From contig JAJPHC010000045.1 of NCBI GenBank assembly GCA_021325515.1, positions 62,001 through 126,000 of the forward strand: 64,000 bases of DNA, given 5' to 3'. Both the position numbers and the translations under genes were made by a program. Below the pieces are notes generated by a model. That model did not search any database, was not told where the DNA came from, and saw nothing but the letters and a program-made list of their open reading frames with translations. Position 1 is the first letter of the stretch; every line of letters starts with the position of its first letter. The DNA is from Acidobacteriota bacterium. GTDB taxonomy: Bacteria > Acidobacteriota > Thermoanaerobaculia > Gp7-AA8. Shown in pieces: positions 50,603-54,711 of this stretch.

Positions 50603-50992
50603 ATGAGCGATCAGGGACGCGTCATCGGCATCGGCGGAATCTTCTTCAAATCAGCGAACCAGCAGCAGATGCGGGAGTGGTACGGCAAGCATCTCGGCCT
50701 CGCGGACGGCGGCCACGGCGCCATTCTGCCGTGGCGCGAGAAAGACAATCCGGACAGCGAGCAGATGACGGTCTGGAGCATCTTTCCCGGCGACACGCGC
50801 TACTTCGAGCCGGGCTCCGCGCCGTTCATGCTGAACTACATCGTCGACGATCTCGACGCGTTGCTCGACCGGCTCGCGAAAGCCGGAGTCCGGATCGATC
50901 CGAAGCGGCAGGATGAAAGCTACGGCCGCTTCGCCTGGATCTACGATCCGGACGGCAACAAGATCGAGCTGTGGCAGCCCATCAACGACTGA
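50603..50992 (+). CDS. VOC/glyoxalase-family protein
   Basis: A 129-residue single-unit vicinal-oxygen-chelate protein: IGGIFFKSANQQQMREWYGKHLG, LNYIVDDLDALLDRLAKAGV, and the closing motif RFAWIYDPDGNKIELWQP. Such proteins form dimeric metal-dependent lyases, dioxygenases or resistance proteins; the substrate is not evident. It ends the AhpD-EamA-FMN reductase-VOC run. Its last 11 nt overlap the convergent P450 gene. Confidence 0.88.
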   Translation: MSDQGRVIGIGGIFFKSANQQQMREWYGKHLGLADGGHGAILPWREKDNPDSEQMTVWSIFPGDTRYFEPGSAPFMLNYIVDDLDALLDRLAKAGVRIDPKRQDESYGRFAWIYDPDGNKIELWQPIND

Positions 50993-52271
50993 TGATGGCT
51001 CGCAGTCCGTCTTTGAATTCGGGCGGTGTCCTGCTGAAATCGAGCTCGAAGTTCTGCGGCGGAAGCTCCCACGTGTAATCGCGCAGCAGCACGATCGCGA
51101 ACACTTCCATGAAGAACGTGGCGTAATCGAGGCCGGGGCAGCGATGACCGGTGGCAGCGCCCGCGCCCTGCGGCGCGAAGGCGTGCTCGTGGCGTTTCTC
51201 TTCGGCGCGCTCCGGTGAGAAGCGATCGGGATCGAACGACGCCGGATCGCTGTAGAGCCCGCGCGCGTTGTGGCTCGGCGTGACGGCCCACATCACCATC
51301 CATCCCGCGGGCACGGTCATGCCGTCGATCGAGAAGCCCTTCGATCTGCCGAACACCGCGGCGACGATGGGGCAGATGCGTTTCACTTCGTTGACGACCT
51401 GCAGCAGATAGGGCATCGACATGAGCGATTCCACGGAGATCGCACCAGCCGGCGACTTCTCGCGAATCTCGGTCGTGAGCCGGATGCGCACCGCGTTGCT
51501 GGCGGTGAGCTGCTGCACCATTGCCGCGAATTCCGCAAAGACGATGAAGCCGGCGATCACGATGTGATGCAGCTCGAGCACGATCTCGTCATCGGACATC
51601 GCTCCGCGATTCGCGAGGATGCGCGAGAGCCCGTCTTCGGCCGGCATCGCAGCGCGCTCACGAATGCGCGCGCGCAGCACGGCGAAGATGCGGTCGCGCG
51701 CCTTCAGCGCCTTGTTGTACGTCGTGCCGGGAAGGTTGACGGGCAGCGTGGCGAAGCCGCGCGTGAGCGTCTCGTAATCGCGGCGGAGCTGATCCATCTC
51801 GGCACCGGCCTGCATGCCGAAGACATTTGCGCAGATGACTTCGATCGAGAGGCGTTTCATTTCGTCGAGCCAGCGGATCTCCTTCTCGCGCGACCACGTC
51901 TCGAACGCATGCTCAACGATCCGCTGCATCTCGGGAAGATAGGAGGTCATCGCCGCGCGTGAGAAGGCCGAGAGGACGATCGTCTTGCGCGTGCGATGGA
52001 TGTCGCCGTCGAGCAGCGGGAGGCTGTCGCCGCCGAAGATCTGGCGAACGTGGGGCGGCATCGCACCGGCGCGCTCGATCGCATCGGGATCGATGAAGGT
52101 GCCCGCGGCATCCGGCCCGGCGATGACGGCGGCTTTCCGCCCGAGGACGTGCGTGCGAAACACGCGGCCGTGGCGCGCGAGACGCTCATCGATGAACCCG
52201 AAGGGATTTTTCGCGAATGCCAGCGTCTCGCCGAGCAGAGGCAGACCATCAGAACCGGGAGGGATGCTCAT
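50982..52271 (-). CDS. Atypical cytochrome P450 (peroxygenase-like heme loop)
   Basis: A 429-residue P450 without a membrane anchor. The heme-ligand loop is FAPQGAGAATGHRCPG with Cys378; the ExxR motif is present (EVKR). The loop form (PQG-G...GHRCPG) is like CYP152 peroxygenases rather than the common FxxGxRxCxG. The I-helix reads IAGFIVFAEF, where the usual acid-alcohol pair (AGxE/DT) is replaced by hydrophobic residues. This suggests H2O2-dependent, isomerase or other non-canonical chemistry. It lies 43 nt downstream of the radical SAM-STAS gene, same strand. Confidence 0.88.
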   Translation of the reverse strand: MSIPPGSDGLPLLGETLAFAKNPFGFIDERLARHGRVFRTHVLGRKAAVIAGPDAAGTFIDPDAIERAGAMPPHVRQIFGGDSLPLLDGDIHRTRKTIVLSAFSRAAMTSYLPEMQRIVEHAFETWSREKEIRWLDEMKRLSIEVICANVFGMQAGAEMDQLRRDYETLTRGFATLPVNLPGTTYNKALKARDRIFAVLRARIRERAAMPAEDGLSRILANRGAMSDDEIVLELHHIVIAGFIVFAEFAAMVQQLTASNAVRIRLTTEIREKSPAGAISVESLMSMPYLLQVVNEVKRICPIVAAVFGRSKGFSIDGMTVPAGWMVMWAVTPSHNARGLYSDPASFDPDRFSPERAEEKRHEHAFAPQGAGAATGHRCPGLDYATFFMEVFAIVLLRDYTWELPPQNFELDFSRTPPEFKDGLRAIISR

Positions 52272-52314
52272 GCTCGATCTACGTTCGCCGGGGCCGCGTG
52301 GATGCGCGGAACGT

Positions 52315-54177
52315 TTAGGAGTACACGCGCACGCGCTCTCCATACTCGCTCATCCGCATCGCGAGATCCTCGAGCGCAGCGCTCTCCGCCTCGACGAGCC
52401 GTTCGAGATCGAGGACGAGGCGCTCCTTGCGCCGCCGCAGTCCCTCGGCGAGATCCTCTGCGAGCCGGCGCGCGCCTTCCGCGTTCAGCGTCCCGCGCAC
52501 CGTCACCCACACGGTCGACTCCGGCCGCAGCTCGACCGCGACCGAATGTCCCGATTCGTCCTCGCCGCTGAGGCGGCGCCAGACGCGCGCCGGCAGCGAT
52601 TCGTCCGGAAGGCGGAACGTATGACGCGTGAGCTTCGGGTGCTGGAACAGCCCGAGCTTCAACTTGAGGCCGGTCCACGCCGCGAGCGCCACGGCGGCAA
52701 CGGACTGCACCGCTTCCTTGAGCGACGGCCCGCCGAGTGCCTTGTGGATACGGCGCTCGAGCGCCGCGATCGATTCGCGCGACGCCCGCGAGAAGACCTT
52801 GCCGGCCAGGAACACGGGATAGGCGCGCCGGATCTCCTCGGCGAACCGCTCCGCCTTCCGCTGCAGCAGCTTGTTAGCCGAGTCCTTCAGCTTCTCGTAG
52901 CCGTGCAGCCAGACATCGAGCGATCGGAAGATGGAGGGGCCGAGACGATGGAGATCCTCGCGGAAACAATGGCTCTGCGCCGACTCGATCTCCGCCGGCG
53001 TCATGGAAGGATGCGTCACCATCGCCTTGAAGCCGGTGCAGTTGCGGTAGTACTCCTCGCGATGATCGGCGAGGTCGCGGTGCAGACGCCCTTCCTTCAT
53101 GACCTGTTCGTAAAACGGCGTTCCGGGCGTCGGACCGTAAATCAGGAACTGCGAGAGGGCCGGCCGGAGCGACAGCAGCCCATCGAGCTCTTCGCCGATG
53201 ATCTCCGGCGTCTGATAGGGGAGCCCGACGATCATCGATGCGAGCACGCTGATCCCGTGATCCCTCAGCTCCCGCATCAACTCGTCCGCCGGCCGTCCCT
53301 GCTGCTTCGCGTAACCGGAGCGCGTTCCCTCGTAGCCGATCCAGACGCCGTCGATGCCCATCTCCAGCAACTCGGTGATCGTGTACATGCTGAGGGCCTT
53401 GATGCTGGCGAAGCAGAAGATCGAAAGGGCCTCGCCGCCGGCGATGACGCAGTCGCGCAGTTCCATCGCACGTTTGCGATTGAGGAGAAAGTCCTCGTCG
53501 AGGATGACGATGCCCATGCCCGGCTCGACTTCCTGATAACGGCGGATGACGTCGTAGATCTCGCGTCCCGTTTCGAGAAGGCGGATGTGTTTGCGCTTGA
53601 AGAAGTGTGAGGTGCAGCAGAAGTCGCAGCCGTTTGGGCATCCGAGGCCGGCGAAGACCATGCCGGTGCGCGACATCTCGCGGCTGAAGACGCGCATGCG
53701 GCTGACGATCAGCGGATGGCGGCGCGGGCCGCTGCTCTCGCCGAGGAGACGCTGCATGAAGCCGGCGCCTTCTTCGCGGCAGATGTGGTCGCACCAGGGC
53801 GCGAGCTCTTCGTCGGAGAGCACGGTGCCGTAGCCGCCGAGGATGATCTGCGCGCCGGGCGCGTAGCGGCGGATGAGCGCCACCGCTTCCTTCATCCGAT
53901 GAAAGGTGGAGAGCACGAACGAGAGGCCGACGTAGTCAGGCTGCTTTCGCAGCTCGCGGATCAGCTCGCGCTTCGATGGATAGTGAAGCACCGTGGCCGG
54001 CGCTTCGATGTTTTCTGCGATGTAAGCGAGCGAGAACTGGATGTGGTTCGCGCGCGGCGAAAAGAGACCTTGCGCGCGCGTGACCTGGCCATACAGCAGC
54101 TCGTAGCCGACGCTCGGCGCATCGCCGTATCGTTCACCGAGCGGGCGGCAGACACTGGTAAGCAGAATTTCTGGCAT
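52315..54177 (-). CDS. B12-type radical SAM protein fused to a STAS-like domain
   Basis: A protein of about 620 residues from ATG 54177. It has an N-terminal cobalamin-binding-like Rossmann domain (~1-150; lacks the DxHxxG motif), a radical SAM domain with CPNGCDFC (Cys180, Cys184, Cys187), a helical region, and a C-terminal STAS-like domain (~525-620; VTVRGTLNAEGARRLAE, LVLDLERL). The radical SAM part resembles the broad B12-rSAM family of methylases and rearrangement enzymes. STAS domains usually bind anti-sigma factors or nucleotides; here it may regulate or localise the enzyme. It precedes the P450 in one operon. Confidence 0.85.
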   Translation of the reverse strand: MPEILLTSVCRPLGERYGDAPSVGYELLYGQVTRAQGLFSPRANHIQFSLAYIAENIEAPATVLHYPSKRELIRELRKQPDYVGLSFVLSTFHRMKEAVALIRRYAPGAQIILGGYGTVLSDEELAPWCDHICREEGAGFMQRLLGESSGPRRHPLIVSRMRVFSREMSRTGMVFAGLGCPNGCDFCCTSHFFKRKHIRLLETGREIYDVIRRYQEVEPGMGIVILDEDFLLNRKRAMELRDCVIAGGEALSIFCFASIKALSMYTITELLEMGIDGVWIGYEGTRSGYAKQQGRPADELMRELRDHGISVLASMIVGLPYQTPEIIGEELDGLLSLRPALSQFLIYGPTPGTPFYEQVMKEGRLHRDLADHREEYYRNCTGFKAMVTHPSMTPAEIESAQSHCFREDLHRLGPSIFRSLDVWLHGYEKLKDSANKLLQRKAERFAEEIRRAYPVFLAGKVFSRASRESIAALERRIHKALGGPSLKEAVQSVAAVALAAWTGLKLKLGLFQHPKLTRHTFRLPDESLPARVWRRLSGEDESGHSVAVELRPESTVWVTVRGTLNAEGARRLAEDLAEGLRRRKERLVLDLERLVEAESAALEDLAMRMSEYGERVRVYS

Positions 54178-54261: not shown

Positions 54262-54711
54262 CTACTTCAGCTTGACCTGTGTCGCTTCGGCGATGGCATT
54301 CATGACGCGGCGGAATCCCGCCTCGTCCTCGGCCGTGATGCGCCGGGCGATCGCTTTTTCGAGGCGGTCGACTTCGGCCTGCACGGTTTCGGCGGCCTCG
54401 CGGCCGGCAGGGGTGAGATCGAGCAGGAAGGAGCGGCGGTCGTTCGGATTGAGCTCGCGGCGGATGAGGCCGCGCGATTCGAGGCGGTCGAGGACGGCGG
54501 TGGCCGTCGAGCCGCGCAGGCCGAAGACGCTGACTACTTCTGCGATGGGACAGGGCGCGTAGCTGCGGAGATAGGAGAGGAGGTGTCCTTCCTGCGGCGC
54601 GAGCTCGGTCTCGCGGAGAGCGTTTTCGAGATGAACGCCGATGTGGCGGGTGGCCTTGTGAATCGGCGAGAGAAAGCGCAGCGGTTTCGGTCTTGACATC
54701 GCTCCCGTCAT
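54262..54711 (-). CDS. MarR-family transcriptional regulator
   Basis: A 149-residue winged-helix regulator. The HTH/wing stretch is IAEVVSVFGLRGSTATAVLDRLESRGLIRRELNPNDRRSF in style, with the MarR wing DRRS. It is divergent from the DinB-like gene, with a perfect 26-bp palindrome between the two starts, so it probably represses both. ATG 54711 or the in-frame ATG 54699 may be the start. Confidence 0.9.
   Translation of the reverse strand: MTGAMSRPKPLRFLSPIHKATRHIGVHLENALRETELAPQEGHLLSYLRSYAPCPIAEVVSVFGLRGSTATAVLDRLESRGLIRRELNPNDRRSFLLDLTPAGREAAETVQAEVDRLEKAIARRITAEDEAGFRRVMNAIAEATQVKLK

Follow-up and report, generated by a model that had tools for sequence, protein, structure and literature searches.

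An atypical, probably CYP152-related cytochrome P450 encoded beside a B12-type radical SAM protein in an Acidobacteriota bacterium

The window, a stretch of 64,000 nucleotides from the genome of an Acidobacteriota bacterium, includes two neighbouring genes on the minus strand, a radical SAM gene and, downstream of it, a cytochrome P450 gene, in the arrangement that the original prediction had described. The first (52315..54177) codes for a B12-type radical SAM protein of 620 aa (P0001) with Pfam Radical_SAM and B12-binding domains, and the second (50982..52271) for a P450 of 429 aa (P0002; PF00067, E=8.5e-38); they are separated by a gap of 43 nt (52272..52314), in which a simple consensus scan found no promoter- or terminator-like site. 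A MarR-family regulator gene (54262..54711, minus strand; PF01047, E=4.6e-12) is located upstream, 84 nt from the radical SAM gene, and may head the transcription unit; the family loci compared have no MarR homologue near the radical SAM or P450 gene. At the other end, a glyoxalase-like gene (50603-50992) is convergent with the P450 gene, the coding regions sharing 11 nt at their 3' ends, and nearby genes in the window are DinB-like, glyoxalase-like, FMN-reductase, and EamA genes.

The radical SAM protein contains a CxxxCxxC motif, CPNGCDFC, as predicted, and the Radical_SAM (E 3.1e-9) and B12-binding (E 6.7e-8) matches of the window copy are both above the Pfam cut-offs. Relatives were located at 28 loci in five phyla, with record titles of Thermoanaerobaculia/Acidobacteria, Elusimicrobia, Planctomycetota/Phycisphaerae, Verrucomicrobia, and Bdellovibrionales/Bacteriovoracaceae. 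Both Pfam domains are found in 28 of 28 family members, and an alignment of the 28 has invariant cluster cysteines (CxxxCxxC) and a strongly conserved N-terminal stretch, SVGYELLxGQVTRxQ. The AlphaFold model (mean pLDDT 83.6) has its best structural match in AprD4 (6fd2), a radical SAM 1,2-diol dehydratase, with Z 21.6 over 376 residues, all within residues 1-414; TsrM, OxsB, CysS, and MgmA follow. AprD4 differs, however, in that it is 17% identical, has another C-terminal half, and gives an NCBIfam AprD4 score of 39.6 against a cut-off of 500. NCBIfam equivalogs in general match only far under cut-off, and no function is therefore assigned. Judged by its domains and conservation, the protein belongs to a stand-alone family of B12-type radical SAM proteins, with cobalamin binding predicted. 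The substrates of the known non-methylating cobalamin-dependent radical SAM enzymes are hopanoids, lipids, porphyrins, nucleotides or peptides (PMC13142503), and by analogy with that class a lipid or other hydrophobic molecule is a possible substrate.

The C-terminus of the radical SAM protein, residues about 541-620 (52318..52557, minus strand), is the STAS-like domain. Pfam matches are weak (STAS_2 at E=0.011 in the window copy, under the cut-off, and better in some relatives, with a best value of 2e-4). In the predicted model, residues 541-620 align structurally with residues 311-443 of 3if5, in the C-terminal part of Mglu, with Z 9.2 and rmsd 2.2 over 78 residues, and the Foldseek matches include 1tid chain D, the anti-sigma antagonist; the earlier recognition of a STAS-like region is thus borne out at the level of predicted fold. 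The tail departs from these STAS domains in two ways: it is without a conserved phosphorylatable serine, and it is optional in the radical SAM family, where the Bdellovibrionota members (L025-L027) and two planctomycete members (L013 and L016) do without it. The phosphorylatable serine is a feature of a regulatory STAS subgroup and not of every STAS domain; in the alignment its position is occupied by S, R, H, P, D, or K, which makes a phospho-switch unlikely. The proposal that the domain senses state finds no support, as some members lack the domain and the serine position is variable, and we infer that the tail is an accessory tethering or dimerisation module. Compared with most relatives, the window copy and some others lack roughly the last 20 residues of the domain. 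Shortening through insertion of the P450 gene is ruled out, since L067 and L068 are also short without a neighbouring P450, and a membrane helix at the C-terminus is likewise dismissed, hydrophobicity being merely moderate (0.7-1.8) with no clear membrane segment.

The two genes had been proposed to constitute a small pathway, and we reject this because adjacency and co-occurrence are both against it. In the DNA fetched around each of the 28 radical SAM loci, several of which end at contig edges, there is no P450 gene beside the radical SAM gene (0/28), and a whole-genome search found no P450 match at E<=1e-5 in 25 of the 28 genomes; the remaining three comprise one with a P450 ortholog (G421, on a contig matching G004) and two with distant P450s. 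Within the window's family, 18 genomes, no second one from the window's genus among them, were compared for gene content: seven carry the radical SAM gene and six the P450 ortholog. Three genomes have both, four only the radical SAM gene, three only the P450, and eight neither, so that the two are distributed independently (Fisher one-sided p=0.43). In the other two family genomes with both genes, G004 and G013, these are on different contigs; in G004 the partner's expected position is sequenced beside both genes and is occupied by other ORFs, and in G013 the P450 flanks are occupied by other genes. Adjacency in the window is most likely a matter of chance, a local accident.

A lineage-specific operon for one product, in which the P450 oxidises a lipid or other metabolite after its modification by the radical SAM enzyme, would agree with the common strand, the 43-nt spacing, and the lack of an obvious promoter in the gap, and also with the P450 being the only one found in a host genome of 5.4 Mb that is 99.8% complete. 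In aminopyruvatide RiPP biosynthesis a P450 acts beside other metalloenzymes (PMC13192836), and the NCBIfam models rSAM_ApyD and ApyO match weakly at this locus. We nonetheless regard such an operon as quite improbable, because the adjacency occurs in no relative, most genomes retain either gene without its partner, and the ApyD and ApyO scores are far under cut-off (39.9 versus 750 and 95.5 versus 525 bits, respectively), scores which also speak against an aminopyruvatide-like RiPP cluster. Our preferred reading, which we hold with about even confidence, is that two separate things are juxtaposed here: a CYP152-related P450 that would use peroxide or hydroperoxide, and a stand-alone B12-type radical SAM enzyme with an optional STAS-like tail.

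The neighbours of the radical SAM gene and of the P450 gene vary between genomes, and across the loci compared neither has conserved neighbours that hint at a substrate, apart from subgroup-specific ones. In an Elusimicrobia subgroup (L009:3392-8286; L014, L015, L023) the radical SAM-STAS gene is in a tight operon with genes coding for a pyridine-nucleotide/FAD oxidoreductase, a radical SAM-isochorismatase fusion, and a type II chorismate mutase. Two Phycisphaerae loci (L010:1231-5445, L024:4038-5622) have a BcrAD/BadFG-type CoA-enzyme activase protein gene as the upstream neighbour, and extra B12-binding/radical SAM genes are located near the radical SAM gene in distant genomes (L011:8047-9600, L012:3985-5409, L006:4048-5757, L026:1895-3229). 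In the related genomes G013, G004, and G017 (L061:5062-9669, L062:250-4880, and L064:7107-11161, respectively), genes for a serine hydrolase and an M13 peptidase come after the P450 ortholog.

The P450 itself is atypical in two regions. The I-helix (ELHHIVIAGFIVFAEF, residues 233-248; 51528..51575, minus strand) reads AGF-IV where neighbours show AGHET, lacks the acid-alcohol pair, and has Ile239-Ala240. The heme loop reads PQGAGAATGHRCPG, and the annotated heme-binding loop (FAPQGAGAATGHRCPGLD, residues 365-382; 51126..51179, minus strand) includes Cys378 and has Gln368 replacing the usual Phe. There are six orthologs including that of the window, all from the window's family, and the other five share 64-68% identity with the window protein. 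All six carry PQGAGxxxGHRCPG, and the I-helix and heme-loop features are kept in 5/5 of the other orthologs, which argues that they are not products of sequencing error or decay; the initial description of a P450 without the acid-alcohol pair and with a PQG..GHRCPG heme loop thus holds throughout. The clade is small and has so far been found only in the window's family. The nearest sequences outside it are about 30% identical, the 343 genomes searched from G434's phylum (L016; record title Planctomycetota) gave no close match, with E 3.6e-35 at best, nor did plasmids, where identity reached about 30%, and a DNA pattern for the heme loop occurs in four of 396 genomes of the window's phylum, in all four within the P450 gene, with no control matches.

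The CYP152 fatty-acid peroxygenases include P450 BS-beta, SP-alpha, and OleT. A tree of 32 sequences was built from the six clade members, ten CYP152-like sequences, and others, with references drawn from annotated plasmid records; the labels CYP152-like and CYP120-like refer to motifs and similarity and are not official names. With all columns included, the clade groups with the ten CYP152-like sequences at 100/99, and a grouping with the CYP120-like sequences is rejected (p-AU 0.013). With the columns of the shared motifs removed, the CYP152-like placement drops to 77/73 and the CYP120-like grouping is not rejected (p-AU 0.33); a smaller P450 tree behaves in the same way with and without the motif columns. 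A peroxygenase neighbourhood had been suspected for this P450, and the protein lacking the acid-alcohol pair does group near CYP152, at a strength that depends in part on those motifs.

Position by position, the clade shares with the CYP152-like sequences, and not with the CYP120-like ones, R67, D88 (9/10), K96, Q368, HRC at 376-378, and P416, together with the PQGxG..GHRCPG insert and a one-residue gap in the I-helix. Residue 368 is Gln in 6/6 members and 10/10 CYP152-like sequences, and Phe in 5/5 CYP120-like sequences. The likeness to CYP152 consists of the PQGxG..HRC[PA]G loop without the usual Phe, the one-residue I-helix deletion, R67/K96/P416, and the tree grouping; the differences are that Ile239-Ala240 is present in 6/6 members where 10/10 CYP152-like sequences have Arg-Pro, that Pro85 is present in 6/6 where 9/10 have Gln or His, and that identity is about 20-26%. 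A His235-His236 pair and Glu247 are the clade's own with respect to the CYP152-like sequences. A 2018 review (PMC5818669) lists Arg-Pro and a heme loop lacking Phe among the features of peroxygenases, and states that every P450 peroxygenase sequence known by that date had the carboxylate-binding arginine. The P450 is thus not CYP152 by definition, and resembles CYP152 on the proximal heme side; the alignment and tree make a common origin of the clade and the CYP152 fatty-acid peroxygenases probable.

Structure comparison gives a different nearest relative. The AlphaFold model of the P450 (pLDDT 87.4, with low values for residues 1-11 and 372-374) matches CYP120A1 (2ve3) with Z 46.2 over 410 residues and CYP152 structures mostly with Z 40-42, and CYP120A1, a retinoic-acid-binding cyanobacterial P450, is the nearest solved structure by sequence as well as by fold, at about 30% identity. 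Its I-helix motif also starts with AG. CYP120-like sequences differ from the window P450 in keeping the I-helix Thr (with Glu in 4/5) and an ordinary PFGGGxREC[IL]G heme loop. Given this nearest structure and the weak placement of the clade once the motif columns are removed, convergence of the heme loop is possible, and the P450 could be an O2-dependent monooxygenase of CYP120-like ancestry with a converged heme loop and an alternative proton relay through His235/His236 or Glu247. The trait-free tree tolerates such an ancestry; the full tree rejects it, and the shared positions (67, 88, 96, 368, 376-378, and 416) span several regions and exceed what one local convergence would produce, so that we consider this reading rather unlikely.

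If the clade is instead related to CYP152, an enzyme with its peroxygenase-type proximal heme loop would most likely draw on H2O2 or a substrate hydroperoxide to generate the reactive iron-oxo species, and O2 with NAD(P)H-driven redox partners would not be the oxidant route. As the acid-alcohol pair and Arg-Pro are missing and position 85 is Pro, acid-base help must come from elsewhere; candidates would be a group of the substrate, the conserved His235-His236 pair, or Glu247. Alternatively the enzyme may, like hydroperoxide isomerases, use no proton donor whatsoever. A hydrophobic substrate is probable, and an arginine-anchored free carboxylate would not be required. We infer from these residues that the P450 probably uses peroxide or hydroperoxide, and does so without the Arg-carboxylate mechanism.

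An enzyme that rearranges hydroperoxides, similar to CYP74 or thromboxane synthase and without need for a proton donor, would account for Ile, Ala, and Pro at polar catalytic positions in 6/6 members, which fit peroxide isomerisation better than an O2-derived Compound I; no such family is prominent among the listed structure matches, however, and we judge this unlikely. A search for a lipoxygenase, a possible source of hydroperoxide, gave no match, though control genomes gave none either. Returning to CYP152-related peroxide use, we tentatively suggest, with well short of even confidence, that the clade is a living intermediate toward CYP152 in which the peroxide-type proximal heme loop and the loss of the acid-alcohol pair preceded the substrate-anchoring Arg-Pro, peroxide being activated without an arginine-held carboxylate. 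If this is so, the literature surveyed describes no such mode of activation for natural P450 peroxygenases.

The open-access literature searched yielded no report combining the features of this P450 clade, and none joining radical SAM, a STAS domain, and B12-binding. The radical SAM family is conserved and uncharacterised, and is a B12-type group spread over five phyla with an unusual STAS-like tail. Of the two genes and their pairing, the better find is the atypical P450, a probably CYP152-related variant that deserves follow-up. It might take substrates other than fatty acids, which would be of practical interest for peroxide-driven oxidation, and a relative with the peroxygenase loop and without the arginine lets the order of changes, and the need for the arginine, be tested; the clade may in this way show how P450s moved from oxygen to peroxide.
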